From the NCBI GenBank assembly GCA_025617745.1, contig CM046867.1, positions 25,288,705-25,352,704 on the forward strand: 64,000 bases of DNA, written 5' to 3'. This stretch comes from Heliocidaris erythrogramma (lineage: Eukaryota; Echinodermata; Echinoidea; Camarodonta; Echinometridae). Both the position numbers and the translations under genes were made by a program. Within the stretch, counting starts at the first letter, position 1. Each line of letters starts with the position of its first letter. The notes below the pieces were generated by a model. That model was not told the DNA's origin, searched no databases, and saw only the letters and a list, made by a program, of their open reading frames with translations. Positions 18,666 through 61,484 of the stretch are shown here, in pieces.

Positions 18666-20600
18666 TTTTTTTGGCAGATTATTTTCTGCATTTATTGAAT
18701 GATCAATGAAGATTACAATTATATACAATAATCATAGGAAATGTACAAAAAATACATAAGATACATTATGCAAAAAAACCCAAAACAAAACAAACAAACA
18801 AAAACAAGTTGAAAATCAAAGTGAATTCATTGATTCAAGTGTAAAATGTTCCAACAGAAACTAGGATTTTAGACATGCAGTAGACCGTCTATCATAAGCA
18901 AATATCTTGACTGGATAGCGGCCTCAAAGGCAAAAGCTACAGGAAGCATACATAATTTTGATAATTGTTTGCAGATCGTTAAATAAATGGACAAAATAAA
19001 TCTTGTACAGTCTGCAGATTATAAAACCGAAAAAAAAATATTCACGTACGTGCATGTGCGTGCATGTGCGTGAGTGCATGGCTTAATTCTGGAAGTTTTC
19101 CGTATAAACACATTCAAAAAGAAGAGAGAAAAAGAGAAAATGGCTCTTTTAAGCTGAAGATTGTCCAGAACTTATATTAAAAAATAATACTACAACAGTC
19201 ACGATGATTTAATGGTCATATTGTGTTAAGATATGTTTTTTCATTAAGGCTTTAAATGAATGTAAGGATGACGCAGATTTTATGTTATCGGGAAGGGAGT
19301 TCCAAATGTCGGGACCGTGGTGTCTTATGGTTCTGTGGGCCAGTAGGGTAATGGGGTTTGCGAGATGAATGTCAGATGAATGTCGTGTAGGATAGGAGTG
19401 AACATTAGTACTGTATGTGAAAGTGTGTTGAAATACCAAAGGTAACATTTTCATTGAAAACTTAAACATAAAGATAACGGTTTGAAAAATATGAATGTCA
19501 TCTATTTTCAGAGTTTTAAAATAATAAAATAGAGGGTCTGTATTTGCTAGATAATGAGAAAGCCCTTTTCTGAAGTCGAAAGGGAGATTGAATTCTGGTC
19601 TTACTGCTATTACCCCATGCTAAATTACAGTACGATATATGGGGGAAAATTACTGAATTGTATATTGTATATAAAGCTTTTTTAGGAAGAAGATATTTTA
19701 ATTTATACAAAATTCCTATACCTCTTGATACGGAGGTACATACATTATTAATGTGAATATTCCATGTTAAATTGGAGTCTATTGTAATTCCTAAAAATCT
19801 AGTGGCTTGTTTTTCAAATCATCAATAACAATATTTTCTTGAATGAATATTTTTAAAGTACATAAAATTAGTTTTATCAATATTTAATGATAATTGATTG
19901 CATTTAAACCATCGAGATAATTTAGCTAACTCAAGATTAAGGATTTTAATTAGGGTATGTACATTTTCATGCGAGTAAAATATATTAGTATCGTCGGCAA
20001 ACAGAACATAAGTTAGGATTGGAGCAGAATTAATAATATCATTTATATATATAAAAAAGAGTAAAGGGCCCAAAATTGACCCTTGTGGTACTCCACATTT
20101 AACATTAGAGGTTGTTGACGTGGCAGATTTATATGCTACATATTGATGTCTATTATATAAATAATCTTTAAACCATAATAAAGTATTCCCTCTAATCCCA
20201 TAAAGTTGTAGTTTATAAATTAAAATCTGATGGTCTATAGTATCGAACGCCTTCGACAAATCCATAAAAACACCTATTGTATGTTCCTTTTTAGATAGAG
20301 CGTTAGTAATTTTATCACAAAGTTGTACAATATCATAGTCAGTCGAGTGATTTTTTCTAAAGCCAAATTGTTGTGGAATTAGTAAGTTATTAATATCTAA
20401 GAAAGAGTACAATCTTTTATAAACTATTCTTTCTAAGACTTTAGAAATACTCGATAACAAGGAGATGGGGCGATAATTAGTATTGAGGGGAGGGTCATTT
20501 TTTTTGTAAATTGGAATTATTTTTGCTGTTTTTAATGAGTTTGGAAAGAAAGGGATAAATTAAAAATGTGAGATAAAGGGGCGGCTATATAATGAATGAA
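18666..20600 (-). mobile_element. 5'-truncated CR1/Jockey-like LINE with reverse transcriptase
   Basis: The minus strand encodes a clear non-LTR reverse transcriptase: the upstream block FPNSLKTAKIIPIYKK then NYRPISLL (frame continuing 5' of 20460), then in the 212-codon frame 19822-20460 the motifs FMDLSKAFDTIDH, GVPQGSILGPLLF and FADDTNIF. FADD carries the catalytic aspartates. Downstream, after frame disruption, come IYNSVIFPHISYCNLAWG (19516-19710) and the typical C-terminal block GPDIWNSLP (19209-19469). A short A tail on the minus strand (T run at 18667-18675) marks the 3' end. The 5' half, including any endonuclease domain, is missing. At least two frame changes separate the C-terminal pieces, so the copy is dead. 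Clade is inferred from motif style. Confidence 0.88.
19822..20460 (-). pseudogene. LINE reverse transcriptase fragment
   Basis: A 212-codon open frame covers the finger and palm of a non-LTR reverse transcriptase. Motifs in order are ISKVLERIVYKRLY, QFGFRKNHSTDYDIVQ, the first catalytic Asp in DLSKAFDTIDH, the GVPQGSILGP turn and the FADD catalytic pair. The frame itself starts at an arbitrary TTG; coding similarity extends upstream to about 20590. The enzyme would reverse-transcribe the element RNA at a nicked target. Downstream coding is interrupted, so no functional product is expected. Confidence 0.85.
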
Positions 20601-21568: not shown

Positions 21569-23054
21569 TGATAATTATGTTGTAAACAAATCTTTAGGAA
21601 TTTTACTCCCAGTGTCAAAGATCGTATGCTCGATATGTAATGAAAAACACAAGTCAGAAAAAATTGGAACCAGCGGGATTCGAACCTGTCATCTACTGCT
21701 TGCCGGGCAGCGACTTAACCACCAGGCTATTCTGGTTCACGGCCAAGTCACGATGAACTAGAATCAAATACCCAAGATCCCCTTCTTTCTGACTCATTAA
21801 TATTCATTTTTAACGGTCCGCCGTAGACAATGGTTAGTAAACGAAGAAGCTTGACTGGGGAGGAATTTTTTAATTTGTAAACAAATCTTTAGGCATTTTA
21901 CTCCCAGTGTCAAAGATCGTATGCTCGATCTGTAATGAAAAACACAAGTCAGAAAAAATTGGAACCAGCGGGATTCGAACCTGTCATCTACTGCTTGCCG
22001 GGCAGCGACTTAACCACCAGGCTATTCTGGTTCACGGCCAAGTCACGATGAACTAGAATCAAATACCCAAGATCCCCTTCTTTCTGACTCATTAATATTC
22101 ATTTTTAACGGTCCGCCGTAGACAATGGTTAGTAAACGAAGAAGCTTGACTGGGGAGGAATTTTTTAATTTGTAAACAAATCTTTAGGCATTTTACTCCC
22201 AGTGTTAAAGATCGTATGCTCGATCTGTAATGAGAAACACAAGTCAGAAAAAATTGGAACCAGCGGGATTCGAACCTGTCATCTACTGCTTGCCGGGCAG
22301 CGACTTAACCACCAGGCTATTCTGGTTCACGGCCAAGTCACGATGAACTAGAATCAAATACCCAAGATCCCCTTCTTTCTGACTCATTAATATTCATTTT
22401 TAACGGTCCGCCGTAGACAATGGTTAGTAAACGAAGAAGCTTGACTGGGGAGGAATTTTTTAATTTGTAAACAAATCTTTAGGCATTTTACTCCCAGTGT
22501 CAAAGATCGTATGCTCGATCTGTAATGAAAAACACAAGTCAGAAAAAATTGGAACCAGCGGGATTCGAACCTGTCATCTACTGCTTGCCGGGCAGCGACT
22601 TAACCACCAGGCTATTCTGGTTCACGGCCAAGTCACGATGAACTAGAATCAAATACCCAAGATCCCCTTCTTTCTGACTCATTAATATTCATTTTTAACG
22701 GTCCGCCGTAGACAATGGTTAGTAAACGAAGAAGCTTGACTGGGGAGGAATTTTTTAATTTGTAAACAAATCTTTAGGCATTTTACTCCCAGTGTCAAAG
22801 ATCGTATGCTCGATCTGTAATGAAAAACACAAGTCAGAAAAAATTGGAACCAGCGGGATTCGAACCTGTCATCTACTGCTTGCCGGGCAGCGACTTAACC
22901 ACCAGGCTATTCTGGTTCACGGCCAAGTCACGATGAACTAGAATCAAATACCCAAGATCCCCTTTTACTCCCTTGGGAGTAAAATGCCTAAAGATTTGTT
23001 TACAAATTAAAAAATTCCTCCCCAGTCAAGCTTCTTCGTTTACTGATAATTATG
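21569..23054. mobile_element. tRNA-bearing tandem element with inverted tail and 11-bp target duplication
   Basis: Five head-to-tail units start at 21581, 21876, 22171, 22466 and 22761, an exact 295-bp spacing. Each unit has a leader (TGTAAACAAATCTTTAGG...), a tRNA-like block on the minus strand, and a trailer. The fifth unit is cut at about 22964 and is followed by an inverted copy of the unit junction (about 22973-23043). The whole is flanked by the direct duplication TGATAATTATG (21569-21579 and 23044-23054). Units are nearly identical, so the array is young or homogenised. No protein is encoded. The layout recalls Penelope-like or retrozyme-like tandem retroelements, but no hammerhead core is visible, so the class is open. 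Confidence 0.85.
21668..21739 (-). ncRNA. tRNA-like block, unit 1 of 5
   Basis: On the minus strand it starts GAACCAG, has an A box-like TAGCCTGGTGGTTAAG, a B box GGTTCGAATCC and ends CTGGTTC, which pairs with the start. The middle forms a short stem around CCGGCAA, as an anticodon arm would, but position 33 is C and the T stem is imperfect, so this is tRNA-like, not a functional tRNA. Equivalent blocks lie at 21962-22033, 22257-22328, 22552-22623 and 22847-22918. They probably supply an internal Pol III promoter. Confidence 0.7.
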
Positions 23055-32179: not shown

Positions 32180-32455
32180 TATTTGTTTGTATTTTACAGT
32201 GTATAACTCCACCCTTATTTTATTGTTTAGAGAGTGAGAGAAGGGGGAGTCTGTTCTCCATCCATTCCATGTATTCATTGTAAATAATATTAGGAACATG
32301 TAAAATAACCCGGTTACTCTTTTTCTTTGTCTTTCTTTCCTGCTCTATTTTTTCTTCTTCTCATTCTGTCTTTCATTTCTGTCTCTTCTGATCGATATTC
32401 TGTCTTTCCTCTTTGTCTCTTCTGATCGGTATCCTCTCTTTCCATTCGACAACAG
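32180..32455 (+). promoter_or_regulatory. Intron end with polypyrimidine tract and 3' splice site
   Basis: A CT-rich stretch (about 32318-32445) leads into CAACAG at 32450-32455, the acceptor for the first recognised receptor exon. The phase (1) fits the downstream frame. Confidence 0.75.
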
Positions 32456-32712
32456 GTGCATCTGTGGCGGTTTCAGTATGGACAATGTGCGCCATCTCCC
32501 TGGAGAGGTACCATGCAATCTGCAACCCTCTAGCGTCCCGAGCTTGGCAGACGAAGACTAGGGCGTGTAAGATCATCGTCGCGGTATGGCTAATGTCCTT
32601 CTTAGTCTTACTCCCATTCGCTATCTACACAGAACACGCGAAGATAGGCGAGTCAGAATACTACAAGTGCCGAGAGAAGTTCCCCAACTTCCTCTTTCAC
32701 AAAATATACATC
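32456..32712 (+). CDS. cckr: CCK-type receptor exon: TM3-TM4-ECL2
   Basis: Starts after CAACAG with a phase-1 junction (the Gly codon is completed from the upstream exon) and ends before GTAAGT at 32713 in phase 0. It encodes ASVAVSVWTMCAISLERY through FLFHKIYI. Vertebrate CCK receptor genes also have an intron just before this Ser-Val-Ser region, so the position is conserved. The open frame upstream of 32456 is intronic. Confidence 0.92.
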
Positions 32713-35700
32713 GTAAGTATGAGGACAAGGGGAACTTGGTGATAATGACAATAATGACACTCTTGTTGGCGGTGGTGGTGATGATCATAAACGAAAGAGA
32801 TGAGCATGATAACGAAGAGCAAGACGAATACGATAATCGTAATATAATGGTGATGATGATGATAATGATAATGATGGTGATGATTACAAAGATCATCATG
32901 ATTTTGATGATGTTGTCTATGGTGATGATGACAGTGACATATGAAAATGTTATGGTGACAAAACTGATGATGAAGATTATTCACGTAGATCTTATCAAAC
33001 TGGGCTAAAGTTAGATATAACATAACTAGAGCATGATAGACTACGTTAATCGTAGTCGCATTTTTAAGAGATGCACTAAATCGGTAAAATTCCCGGCAGA
33101 GATGAACTATCTTTCCAAACTTCGAAGGCAAAGTACATCTAACACTAATAGAAATAATCATCTGCTAGTATGATATGAGAAATTCGTTAATGAAACTGAC
33201 ATTTGTCAACCTGGTTTAGAGGCGGTCAGTGGAGCAAGATGTAAACTTCGGTCTAAAGTAACAGAATTTTCTGTAATTGACACATGAATGGTAGGTTTCA
33301 ACATGGCAACAACATACCTCATATACTTAGCAAGCTCCTCTATTCCTTCTTGTCAAACATGTGCAATGGGTTATGGTGTAACAAAATCCTGGCAAGATTT
33401 TTTGGCTACCTTTGAGAAAGCAATACAAATTCACAATTTGATAAGTTATTAATGAACTGATCATTTGGCATGAAATTGTACAGTTACTTAGAATTCTTAA
33501 GATTTCACGATGTAAATTTAACCTGAAGTAAATAAATTGCTTTGAGTTATTAAGGTTGTAACGTAAAAATGCCCTTTCTCTATACATCTAGTGCATTGTG
33601 GGGCAGCAAAGCTTGGTCAAAGGGCACTTTGGTATTTTTCGGGGGGGGGCGTTACACCACCTTCCTGATATTTATTAACTTATTGTTATTTTATTGTAAT
33701 GTATATCCATACCTCTTCCTTCTGACAAAATTTGGTCCATGGGTTTAAGGGGGGAAAGAAGTTACCACAATTATTAGGGGCATGTTGACAACCCATCCCG
33801 ACAGAAATGTTTTGTCAGTTTTCGTGTTCTGTAATGTCTGGTCATACTACTTCTTTTTGACAAAGGTTGGTGCATGGGGTATATGGGGTGAAATCGACGC
33901 GAATTGGGGTCTGTTTCGGGGGCTCCGGGCTGCGCGTTTACGTTTTACAACCAAGCCTAGGCAGATTTCGCATTTTTCATACTAATACGGTTTATTCCGT
34001 CAAGACTAATCTGCATGAATATTTATGAAAACGAATTATAGCGATATAATAAAACGAGCAAGGGCATCGAGCAGCTGTTGTGTGTGGCGCAATCGGATAA
34101 TCCAGTCCTCACTTGGTGAAAGAACCACGAGTTCGAACCTCGGCAGAAGTTTATATTACGAAATTTTCTTTTGCTTATTTAAAAATAAGGTGACTGAGTA
34201 AGAAAATACAAGTCCGATACAAGAAAATACAAGTCCGATACTTGTAGTCTGTTTCAAAGTCTTCAAAAAGGGGTTTCTGCCTAGGCTTGGTTGCAAAAAA
34301 GAAAGACGCCTCCGGGCTAAACCCAACGACTACGGTCAGGCTGACAACCGCTTTGGCAATGACTAAGATGGTCTAAGTAACATGGTAGGGTCAAATCTTA
34401 TGGGTAAAGTAGGGTGACTGTTTCGGGACAGGCTCCCAATCCATGAACGAGAAATTTTCAATGAAGGATATAAATATGAGTAAATGGGGGAAAAGGCCAC
34501 GGCAAATTGGAATGTGATAAGTGTATTGCGATTTACATGTCCTGTATAGAGTTATGGTCAGATTATATACGTAGGGACGTTTGTTATTCATTAACAGTTA
34601 AATAGTTTAATTTCGCCCCGATGCTTTTCTTTAAGGGGGTTTATCGCTTCGTGTATGAAGCGTAGTATTATGTCAGCGTAGTAAATTCGTATTCATGATT
34701 GTATCTCTCTATCGTTGTATCTTCTTCGGGTTCGGAGGTTGATTGCAACATTTTTCCACACATCTCTGTTCTTTGTCATTCTAGTGCACTCTGTGTTTTA
34801 CCACTCCAGGTCTTAATGTTGTCTTCCCAGCTGGTTATCGGCTTCCCTCGTTTTACAGTACCTTCTACTCCCCCTTCCAGCATGTCTTTCAAGAGACTCT
34901 GATGTTTTATGATGTGACCAAAGTATTTTGCCTATCTTTCCTTAACTAGTTCTATCAGGGTAGGTTGTTTACGCCCTGCCATGCGCAATATTTCTTTGTT
35001 AGTTTTCGTCTGTTTCCATGATATTCTCATCATTCTCATCATTCTCCTGTATATCCACATTTCAAATGATGTGATTTTCTTTTTCATAGTCTGGGTTACA
35101 ATAGCAGATATCTCATTATATTTCGTTCTCAGTTTAGTCCGTGCAATGTATATGATGTAAGATATCTCGGCGTGTTAAGAGATACGCGCGACGTCAGATC
35201 ATCATCTAATTTATTTGACCATTACATTCTGGTGTGAGATCTCACATCGTATGTGCAACGCGACGTAATTAACTAGTCACAATTGTTTTTAATCAGCTAT
35301 GTGAACACGGCCTTTAAGTTTTGTTTTACATCGTGTGAATTTGACCACTGTATTTAGGGGACGGAGCGCGACAAAATTCCCTTAACACCTGCTGAGGACA
35401 ATTTAAAATTCAAACCACAGTTTGACCGATCATCGATCGGGGTAATCTTGGATCAGGTTTCCTTCATTTCGGTTGAGCCAATAATTTCGAGCAGTCTAGT
35501 GGTGCGCTTATGCTTCCTTTACAAAGGCAGAATGAGCGTTTTGAAACGATCATGTAAAACGCAGTTTCACGGGGTACCGTTTAATCCTCTTTTCTCCAGG
35601 CGAATTCGGGCTCTGTAGCTGGATTCGCAAACCTGCACTGCGCATGCTACGTTGGCCCAGGGAAGGGCAGGTCAAGTTGGACGCGCGCATTTTTGGAAAG

Positions 35701-57900: not shown

Positions 57901-58079
57901 GAATAATTACATCATAACGAAGGAATTTGGATTAAAAAATAACGTAAATGTGGAATGATGAAGAAAAGATTTACCAAACACATAAAAAGTACTTTGTAAA
58001 CAAATTTTTAGGCATTTTACTCCCAGTGTTAAAGATCGTATGCTCGATCTGTAATGAAAAACACAAGTCAGAAAAATTG

Positions 58080-58336
58080 GAACCAGCGGGATTCGAACCT
58101 GTCATCTACTGCTTGCCGGGCAGCGACTTAACCACCAGGCTATTCTGGTTCACGGCCAAGTCACGATGAACTGGAATCAAATACCCAAGATCCTCTTCTT
58201 TCTGACTCATTAATATTCAAACGGTCCGCCGTAGACAATGGTTAGTAAACAGTAAACAGTAAACAGTAACAGAATAGCCTGGTGGTTAAGTCGCTGCCGG
58301 CAAGCAGTAGATGACAGGTTCGAATCCCGCTGGTTC
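58080..58336. ncRNA. Head-to-head pair of tRNA-like blocks (left end)
   Basis: The minus-strand copy (58080-58151) matches those of the 21.6-kb array. The inverted copy (about 58266-58336) starts GTAACAGAATAGCCTGG and lacks one C of the central CCCGG. The spacer contains ACGGTCCGCCGTAGAC and three AGTAAAC words. Confidence 0.7.
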
Positions 58337-59596
58337 CAAAAGGCAATCCAACCTTGGTAAAAAGATGATTTATTTGAAAACAGAAAAATGAGAAAAACAG
58401 GATGGTGAAAGTTTGGAAGAAAATTGGACAAGAAATAAGAAAATTATGGATGTTTCAAAAATGATATCACTAAATCTATGCGAATCTCAAACTGGCACTT
58501 TGGTGAGTCGATTGTGAGATATTGGCATTTGTCATGCACTAAAATGTCATTAATTGCAGTTTTCTCCTAATGGCCTTTTCCCCTCGGGGCATTATAGATA
58601 GCATATTGTTATATAATAGGTCCCCATAAAAGAAAAAGATCGTACTGCGTAATACATTTGGGAAAAAAATTACATTTTAGTCATTTTGTGTGTTGGAGCA
58701 AATGGGGGATTGTCTGCCACTGTACATCGTAGTGACATTACTGATTCGGCCAATTTGAAATTCCCATATGTGTTCAGATACACATTGTGTATAAGCCACA
58801 GACAACCCCAATCATATATATGCCATGTAACAAAACTCTTTAGATGAAGACATCTACAGTATTTATAATAAAAAATGAATAAATAAATTAAAATGATGAT
58901 ATTCCGGAATATCTTCAAGTCATTCTTTATTGAACCAGAGTATGCATGATGTTCATATATGAATGATGTAATCTAAATGAATGGAATACAAGAGCTCAGA
59001 TATACTCAATGCCAAGTAACTTCCATGCTGAAGACAGTCCAGATAGGGGCCAGTGTAGAGGAATTCAGCTGCAGCCCCAGCCTTGAGGCAACCTATGCAT
59101 ATTTCATGCAGATCTAATTGAAACGAAAGCACATAATGAGCCGTGTGACGTGGGGGCAAATTTGCATTTCTCCTGGCCGATTAAGTGTGTGGGTTAGTCA
59201 TCTCTTTGAATGGAATGCAATGATACAGTTACACTGGGTAATCGGGACTCGACTGTACATATGTCGGGTTTGGATGAAGGGGTGCATTGATACTTTTAAA
59301 AAACTAGGATGGTGTTCGTGAAAAACTTGAAGTACATGTATGTTAGTAAACGAAGAAGCTTGATGGGAGGAATTTTTTTAGGCATTTTACTACCAGTGTT
59401 AAAGATCACATTGCAAGAAAATTCCATCAAAATAAATATTGGCTGAATACTTACTATTGCATAGATGGCATAAATTAAACAAGGTTATCCAAATTCAACG
59501 CTTGGAAACATTTGAATTAATGATTATTATCAATTATAAAACGGTAAAATACAGCCCCGATATAGCAGCTGAAGAGCTCCTTGAACGCTGCTGAGA

Positions 59597-60175
59597 TGTG
59601 TGACGACACACGAAGGACCAGTCCTGTCTAAGCAGACGATGTCCCATAACATCTTACACATTTTTAAGTGCCTGTTTTGTCATCTCCTCTTCACTTATTT
59701 CTCTTACTTGACTAGCGTCAGTCTTAATGTTAGTCTGTTGCCTCACTCTTAACTTCGTGTATGGTATTATTTTGATGAAAAATGCAACGTTAAAAAAATA
59801 AAGGAATCAGTCACTTGTAAACAAAATAAGACGCCATTGTATTTCCAGCTGCTTGCACCGGGGCATGTTCGGCGTTTCAAGAGGGAACGAATACAATCTG
59901 TGATATTATTCGGAGGGCTTTTCAATTTGAAAGTGGGGTTTATTTCATTGATCATTGACCCTTCTCCTGTGTATTTACAATCAAACGGTTTTAGTTATCA
60001 GAATCAGTTCACTTTCCCTTTTAGAATGGTGTGAAATAAGGTCATGTTTAAATGTACCAAACTCTTTATAATTTGATAAATAATTGCATTGCAATTACGT
60101 TCATTCATTATAGGACGTCGTCTGCTTAAGCAGGATCGATCCCTAATGTGACGACATCAAAACATCGCTATATTT
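59597..60175. repeat. Nested diverged inverted repeat
   Basis: GTGTGACGACA followed by CCTGTCTAAGCAGACGATGT (about 59600-59645) is mirrored around 60112-60165. It may be a MITE inserted in the composite element. Confidence 0.5.
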
Positions 60176-60397
60176 CTGGCGAATCCTCGGATATTCCAGA
60201 TGCTGAGAAGAGCTTTTATTTATGTTGTTTTTATAATCATCAGATACGCAGTTGACATAAAACTTATACGATTGCCATCTGTAAGCTTCCCAGTTTCTAG
60301 TGATACATTAATTGCCATATTTGTGATTTTCTTTGGATAGCTACTTTAAAGATCGTATGCTCGATCTGTAATGAAAAACACAAGTCAGAAAAAATTG

Positions 60398-60648
60398 GAA
60401 CCAGCGGGATTCGAACCTGTCATCTACTGCTTGCCGGGCAGCGACTGAACCACCAGGCTATTCTGGTTCACGGCCAAGTCACGATGAACTGGAATCAAAT
60501 ACCCAAGATCCTCTTCTTTCTGACTCATTAATATTCAAACGGTCCGCCGTAGACAATGGTTAGTAAACAGTAAACAGTAACAGAATAGCCTGGTGGTTAA
60601 GTCGCTGCCCGGCAAGGAGTAGATGACAGGTTCGAATCCCGCCGGTTC
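60398..60648. ncRNA. Head-to-head pair of tRNA-like blocks (right end)
   Basis: Same arrangement as the left pair, with the same spacer and junction, so both ends derive from one dimeric unit. The outer flank after 60648 is an inverted leader (TTTTTTCTGACTTGTG...). Confidence 0.7.
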
Positions 60649-60768
60649 CAATTTTTTCTGACTTGTGTTTTTCATACGATCTTTAACAATGGGAGTAAAA
60701 TGCCTAAAAATTTGTTTACAAATTAAAATTCCTCCCATCAAGCTTCTTCGTTTCCTAACATAAAAAGT

Positions 60769-61484
60769 ACAGTTGGAAAAATTCTCCCCAAATAAATGTT
60801 TCAAAATATTTTAAGGAAATTTTTATACCAGTAGATAGCTTAGGGTCTCTTCTATCAATTGACACCAAAATATTTAACGCTTGAGTGAGCAAAGGCCAAT
60901 AATGAGAAAGGGTGCAAAATCCAGTCTTGACAAGAATTGATATTGGCTTTGGCTGTATCAGCCGAGCTGAGAGTCATGTAAAGGCTTAGAAATTTCCATA
61001 TTCTGATCACTTAAAGACAATTTATGAAATAACAGGCTATGTTCTCTGTATATCCTTACACATCCCATCACTTTTTATGCTTGAGTTAGTAACTAACTAC
61101 TTTGCTGGGTGTTTCAATATGTTACTTTTGGTGAGTCTTTTAATTTCATGTGGCTTGCTTACTCAACCATAAAATTTGGATGGGATATATCAGGAAATAC
61201 ATTGAACAAAGTCTGTTCTTTCATAATAGTCTTTCAATGATCACAATATAAAATTTCGAAATCTTTTCATGACTATCAATTTGGCTCATACCAGCCAGAA
61301 CAACAAACATTTGTCAAGAATGGATTTTGCATCATTTCACAAAAGTGGCCCTTGCTCACTCAAGCATAAAATATTGTGAGATATTTTAGTGTCATTGATA
61401 GAAGAGATCATAAGCTAACCACGGGTATGAAATTTTACTGAAAATATTTTGAAATATTTAATTGGGGAGGCTTTTTCCAACTGT
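60769..61484. mobile_element. Foldback element with ~250-bp arms
   Basis: Left ACAGTTGGAAAAA...CTCCCCAA is mirrored by TTGGGGAGG...CCAACTGT at 61463-61484; similarity runs about 250 bp inwards, including GATCTCTTCTATCAATTGAC-like and TTGAGTGAGCAA words. A further direct copy of the arm interior lies at about 61495-61620. No coding capacity. Confidence 0.75.

Follow-up and report, generated by a model that had tools for sequence, protein, structure and literature searches.

Penelope-like elements (PLEs) carry direct and inverted pseudo-long terminal repeats (pLTRs), optionally with a 31-bp tail on one of them, and are flanked by 8–10-bp duplications; palindromic junctions and host sequence captured between the pLTRs are also described (PMC3846280). 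A PLE protein cleaves and extends both strands at AT-rich DNA, and two start sites of its reverse transcriptase (RT) within the RNA delimit a 30–40-bp tail. No difference in start site between the strands is reported in vitro, and the insertion mechanism of PLEs is still poorly known (PMC11167929). Short, non-coding, non-autonomous Penelope elements are reported from Heliconius butterflies (PMC6685494). Metazoan (non-LTR) retrozymes are tandem non-coding units of about 150–300 bp with a type I hammerhead ribozyme, likely mobilised by PLEs (PMC7761336). Statements on these four sources refer to the parts of their text available to us. Here we analyse a 64,000-nucleotide stretch of the sea urchin Heliocidaris erythrogramma (GCA_025617745.1, contig CM046867.1, positions 25,288,705 to 25,352,704, forward strand; hereafter the window), which holds a 2.77-kb element near its right end and a sister element at 21.6 kb. 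Both are built from one short repeated unit. The family of this unit is very probably a non-autonomous, tRNA-bearing retroelement copied by a Penelope-type mechanism. We infer the mobilising PLE enzyme, since no PLE with matching sites was found.

Identified ends of the unit family begin at two sites

The host assembly (1.064 Gb, 26 contigs) contains hundreds of candidate copies of the unit family. A left-end query gave 143 matches (best 40 of 614 candidates scored) and a tail-plus-unit query 123 (best 39 of 894). The insertion set consisted of 37 fetched places, the two window elements and one copy lying beside a PLE (L061). Three places were dropped because they arose by duplication of the DNA around them, L009 repeating the 2.77-kb element and L015 and L016 repeating L014, which left 37 distinct insertions. 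The unit measures 283–295 bp and is highly uniform (29 complete units aligned, 25 of them distinct). Numbering starts with TTTGTAAAC as position 1.

The identified ends are antisense copies of the unit that start, reading inward from the flank, either at about position 1 (site A, TTTGTAAAC) or at about 255–256 (site B, TTAGTAAACG). The stretch between the two sites, referred to as the tail, is 35–40 nt long; among 25 units examined the motif was found in 24, and the distance is 36 nt in 17 of these. An automated classifier placed both ends of 22 insertions. Twenty pair one A with one B (A on the left in 12, B on the left in 8), two are A+A and none is B+B. At least 20 A+B pairs out of 22 would have a probability of about 6e-5 if the ends were independent (binomial, about half expected). 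One end was unplaced in the other 15 of the 37 (10 with A, 5 with B); L037, read by hand as A+B, was counted here according to the classifier. Eight of these 15 copies are truncated in the second unit near positions 27–63, a cluster that may mark the 5′ end of the template or a stop at a GATC hairpin. One of these truncated copies, L041, has 14 extra bases followed by an exact duplication of 12 bp.

Of 36 distinct insertions, 19 have flanks whose longest exact match is at least 9 bp, compared with 24 of 1474 mismatched flank pairs. Taken at face value the duplications are 9–14 bp long, although some of the letters may belong to the element, and the match at L036 is A-rich. The initial annotation had proposed that duplications of variable length fit insertion by an RT, and this range agrees with it. 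Moreover, the coordinates at which opposed copies meet differ between insertions, as does the number of tandem units.

No open reading frame (ORF) of at least 100 aa overlaps the unit in the window or in the unit array at 21.6 kb, and none of the 7 interior frames scanned matched RT or GIY-YIG. Being without an RT/GIY-YIG ORF, the family is classed as PLE-like in mechanism only. The search for longer relatives with an RT centre, suggested in the initial annotation, came back empty: no coding relative was found among the fetched copies, and no PLE with the same termini among the 32 GIY-YIG stretches fetched. L079 likewise yielded no autonomous relative, and no relative with the exact 19-base core was found in bacterial genome contigs or viral contigs. 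A second unit type with its tRNA part replaced, suggested by matches stopping at query position 91 or restarting at 245, was rejected as a search artefact because L078 runs straight through the tRNA part. L078 also carries, at 860–1261 inside its tandem unit array, an insert of about 400 bp with long inverted ends (CAGTCAGACCCAACTCC...). Complete units have, on the sense strand, a sequence similar to a 3′ splice site (CTGAC...TTGTGTTTTTCATTACAG), located immediately 5′ of the ATG that precedes site A.

An empty site for the sister element

The sister element is flanked by the 11-bp duplication TGATAATTATG (21569–21579 and 23044–23054). It contains 4.7 copies of a 295-bp tandem unit (21580–22964), and its right end, which is inverted and 71 nt long, includes the tail (22974–23043). 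The region represented by the window is duplicated about 680 kb away on the same contig (C15, ~25.99–26.03 Mb) with 97–99% identity; the second copy may be a segmental duplication (paralogue) or an unmerged haplotype. Only one of the two region copies holds the sister element. Its flanks are contiguous in the other (97% over a 300-base query), with a single TGATAATTATG. Insertion of the sister element therefore created an 11-bp duplication. Both region copies contain the 2.77-kb element, flanked in each by the same duplication (99.1% identity across 5.8 kb).

Anatomy of the 2.77-kb element

The features of the two elements are as follows.

57980..57992, no strand: left target-site duplication ACATAAAAAGTAC (exact repeat and flank comparison).
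57993..58250, plus strand: unit copy 1, from site A TTTGTAAACAAA, antisense to the inferred RNA (sequence comparison).
58080..58151, minus strand: tRNA-like segment, same sense as the inferred RNA, with a T run after it on the sense strand (Rfam 19.4 bits, below cut-off).
58236..58280, no strand: fold-back junction between two opposed unit copies, containing repeated AGTAAAC (sequence).
58270..58339, minus strand: inverted unit piece with a second, partial tRNA-like copy, ending in GGTTCCAA (sequence comparison).
58340..59342, no strand: apparently captured host DNA, about 1.0 kb (93.7% identical copy, L081).
59343..59398, plus strand: unit copy 2 from site B (tail), site A sequence missing (sequence comparison).
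59399..60349, no strand: nested, unrelated 943-bp repeat (59403–60345) with TTAA on both sides (genome copies).
60346..60568, plus strand: unit copy 2 continued, with a tRNA-like segment at 60398–60469 on the minus strand (Rfam and sequence comparison).
60581..60722, minus strand: inverted unit copy back to site A (60711–60722; sequence comparison).
60723..60757, minus strand: right-end tail, site A to site B (end classifier and sequence comparison).
60758..60770, no strand: right target-site duplication (exact repeat and flank comparison).
21569..23054, plus strand: sister element (tandem-repeat analysis and sequence comparison).

The framework given in the initial annotation, namely an exact 13-bp duplication, head-to-head dimers with the same junction at both ends and a left leader that recurs inverted on the right, was confirmed. 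By exact search ACATAAAAAGTAC occurs exactly twice in the window, and it is absent from all 100 shuffles of it. When first-order random flanks were simulated, a junction match of at least 11 bp arose at a rate of 1e-5 and one of at least 13 bp in 0 of 200,000 trials. The left dimer (58029–58339) and the right dimer (60346–60651) are 96% identical and have in common the fold-back junction with its repeated AGTAAAC, of which the left dimer has one extra. TTTGTAAACAAA opens the element at 57993 and returns inverted at 60711–60722, and the termini are common to the sister element. The right ends of both elements extend about 36–40 nt past the TTTGTAAACAAA point, forming the tail.

The element, judged from sequence comparison, is composite: a unit dimer, about 1.0 kb of apparently captured host DNA and an interrupted second unit copy. 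The stretch 58340–59342 matches L081, about 94 kb downstream, with 93.7% identity over 1015 bp. L081 has no unit copy within the 3.6 kb fetched and its outer flanks are unlike. One further full-length copy of the stretch lies at 26.109 Mb (best 40 of 4353 candidates scored). On this comparison the stretch appears to be captured host DNA. Its first ~430 bp (58342–58771) resemble a common repeat at about 80% (same 40 of 4353 candidates).

The second unit copy begins precisely at site B (59343), without the site A sequence, as by a small deletion. It is interrupted by the 943-bp repeat, which is 98–99% identical at 38 other places among 40 scored; the corresponding 6870 candidates belong to the query with the whole interior, which includes the other common repeat. 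The 943-bp repeat has a subterminal inverted repeat of about 49 bp (76%), and in L019 and L033 pieces of it are likewise found next to unit position ~39. From its anatomy, the element may record three RT starts: one at A from the left flank (57993), and two at B, from the right flank (60757) and from the 3′ end of the captured fragment (59343).

Two further features of the window are a retrotransposon fragment matching RVT_1 beside the sister element (19822–20559, minus strand, E 4e-38) and a rhodopsin-type receptor exon (7tm_1, E 5e-19) at 32392–32739 on the plus strand.

A degenerate tRNA-like cassette

In complete units a tRNA-like stretch of 72 nt, with the same sense as the inferred RNA, is followed by a T run. 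By inspection the stretch has an acceptor stem with 7 of 7 pairs, a 5-bp anticodon arm with a 7-nt loop and an exact B box. However, the likeness is modest. The best Rfam model, tRNA-Sec, scored 19–20 bits against a cut-off of 47 (E near 1) at the 7 full-length stretches (2 in the 2.77-kb element and 5 in the sister element), and no Rfam match was listed for the inverted pieces. ARAGORN reported no tRNA in the window, and the 72-nt stretch was not called. An A box with 2 mismatches lies at the expected place, a weak observation given that 20 shuffled windows contained 31 such box pairs (at most 3 mismatches). The 72-nt stretch alone folds no better than shuffles, although a good fold was obtained for the complete 295-nt unit (z = -4.66). 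We consider the stretch, on inspection of its sequence, to be tRNA-derived but degenerate. A role as RNA-polymerase-III promoter or RNA-processing signal is weakly favoured.

A second tandem family, t2 (L060:625–985), has a spacing of 402 bp and gave 78 matches (best 40 of 1013 candidates). Direct and inverted t2 copies lie near several PLE loci, with ends read in few loci only. At E 1e-8 it does not match any of the unit loci. ARAGORN called a tRNA-Arg(TCT), followed by a T6 run, in L059, L060 and L065 (3 of 11 loci scanned). Thus, counting t2 and the ~290-bp unit, tRNA-bearing tandem repeats with a PLE-like layout occur at least twice. A more general scheme, which we regard as doubtful, is that tRNA cassettes replaced the hammerhead ribozyme more than once in small, tandem, PLE-dependent elements such as these two. 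Template RNA would then be provided through tRNA promoters or RNase P/Z processing, with PLE priming at two sites, one per cut end, and captured DNA serving as extra primers.

Resident GIY-YIG PLEs

A search of the genome for the GIY-YIG family gave 121 matches (best 150 of 1721 candidates scored). The five long frames scanned represent four families, and all five match both RVT_1 and GIY-YIG, although in two of them RVT_1 falls just below its cut-off. In family F1 (L059–L066) both ends could be placed in six of eight loci (L059, L061, L062, L063, L065 and L066). All six have one A and one B, and one end is longer than the other by about 33 nt or more; several of the longer ends enter AT repeats, and further PLE fragments lie beyond the right end of L065. 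In family F2, L071 and L072 by reading have one end with a common extension of about 34 nt and the other without it. Thus one tailed end per insertion is seen in these resident PLE loci, as in the passenger. The Penelope-like geometry put forward in the initial annotation is supported by this feature and, over the 37 insertions, by the variable duplications where these were found, the inward A and B starts, the differing junctions, the truncated copies and the empty site. The flank repeat of L063 is TATAATGATGAATATA. Several F1 ends lie within (AT)n repeats, which suggests that F1 targets AT microsatellites.

The hammerhead core CTGANGA...GAAA was found by pattern search in all F1, F2 and F4 loci fetched. 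The core with stem was present in 0 of the 25 distinct units. The same pattern was absent from the F3 loci L069, L070 and L075, and L068 (F3) gave a different match. Rfam, at gathering and E-value thresholds, reported no hammerhead or other ribozyme in the units. Since Rfam also missed the clear core in the F1 element L060, only the pattern search is counted as a control.

Mechanism and alternative explanations

A plausible course of insertion is that the GIY-YIG/RT enzyme of a resident PLE nicks the two DNA strands about 9–14 bp apart. Each 3′ end would then prime reverse transcription within the RNA, with A used by one end and B by its counterpart. Both complementary DNAs would converge and be joined by template switching or end joining, and a tandem RNA would give rise to tandem insertions. 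Both ends may be held on one RNA or one dimer, accounting for the exclusive pairing of A with B.

Several observations weigh against copying by a Penelope-type mechanism. The A+B rule is not predicted by the in vitro work, in which no difference in start site between strands is reported (available text of PMC11167929). L032 and L039 are A+A. Within the 2.77-kb element, the right half considered by itself has B (59343) facing B. In 17 of the 36 insertions no flank match of at least 9 bp was seen, and the counts of ends and duplications are biased because the copies sampled are the top-scoring ones (40 of 614 candidates). No PLE with the same A and B sequences was found: across 32 fetched GIY-YIG stretches, some overlapping, the best E value for a doubled unit was 0.27, except for the inserted copy in L061. 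Finally, the presence of one fixed A end and one fixed B end is, by itself, compatible with a two-ended DNA transposon as well.

This last point leads to the possibility of a cut-and-paste (DDE) transposon of foldback or miniature inverted-repeat type, moved as a fixed unit with short inverted termini TTTGTAAACAAA and TTAGTAAACGAA. Such an element would explain the inverted ends, with GTAAAC in common, and the presence of one end of each kind in 20 of 22 two-ended copies. It would not explain flank duplications that range, at face value, from 9 to 14 bp, or an element whose junction coordinates and tandem-unit numbers vary. The eight copies cut short near positions 27–63 and the duplication beyond extra bases at L041 also speak against it. 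According to the initial annotation, RT-type insertion would be contradicted by relatives that encode a DDE transposase and have duplications of constant length; no transposase-coding or other coding relative was seen among the fetched copies, and the lengths vary. We consider a DDE origin highly improbable. An ordinary tRNA-derived short interspersed element (SINE), moved by a long interspersed element (LINE) through one-sided target-primed reverse transcription with ‘twin-priming’ inversions, would account for the tRNA-like segment, the variable duplications and the truncated copies, and a retrotransposon RT fragment lies nearby (19.8–20.6 kb). Yet both flanks of the two-ended copies join the internal starts A and B and not one fixed 3′ tail, the T run comes directly after the tRNA-like part, and tandem arrays and an optional 30–40-nt tail are features described for PLEs (available text of PMC3846280 and PMC11167929). 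This explanation is very hard to sustain.

A decayed metazoan retrozyme, mobilised as a small circular RNA after losing its hammerhead ribozyme, is better placed, although still unlikely. The ~290-bp unit, its tandem copies, the absence of an ORF and the PLE link proposed for retrozymes (available text of PMC7761336) all fit. However, the 0 of 25 distinct units with a hammerhead core and stem contrast with its presence in every F1, F2 and F4 PLE locus fetched. Rfam likewise reported no hammerhead in the units, though it also misses the F1 motif. Copying by a Penelope-type mechanism thus remains our preferred explanation.

Comparison with known systems

A passenger that is young, compact, high-copy and protein-free, and whose ends are clean, preserves PLE insertion well in nature. 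It suggests that the broken DNA ends prime at separate RNA sites, one end at A and the opposite one at B, and that about 1 kb of host DNA was captured by such an element. It would also connect PLE-type insertion with tRNA-bearing repeats, for which LINEs are usually held responsible. tRNA-derived SINEs resemble the unit family in being short and non-coding, with a tRNA-like segment and many dispersed copies. Unlike them, the unit family has a T run right after the tRNA-like segment and RT starts at both flanks, and it forms tandem arrays with no recognised LINE-type tail.

Among the papers listed in the literature searched, with most subscription papers outside its scope, none describes a tRNA-bearing PLE passenger in its title, the opening of its abstract or the text consulted. 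PLE passengers as such are not new, given the non-autonomous Penelope elements of Heliconius. These too are short, non-coding and attributed to Penelope; the available text of PMC6685494 makes no mention of a tRNA-like part or of end structure, and the likeness is one of description only. Retrozymes have in common with the unit family their small tandem non-coding units (PMC7761336, available text), whereas our units lack the hammerhead (25 of 25) and contain a tRNA-like segment. The closest correspondence is with the PLEs themselves, as far as the consulted text describes them. Like the unit family, they have direct and inverted terminal units, a 30–40-nt tail at one end, short duplications, complete or partial tandem copies, palindromic or fold-back junctions and DNA captured between the terminal units. 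Unlike PLEs, the unit family has neither an RT/GIY-YIG ORF nor the hammerhead motif that is common, though not universal, among them; it bears a tRNA-like cassette and is only 283–295 bp long. What is added to the known systems is a coding-free, hammerhead-free, tRNA-bearing unit with PLE layout, together with the count of its A+B ends.

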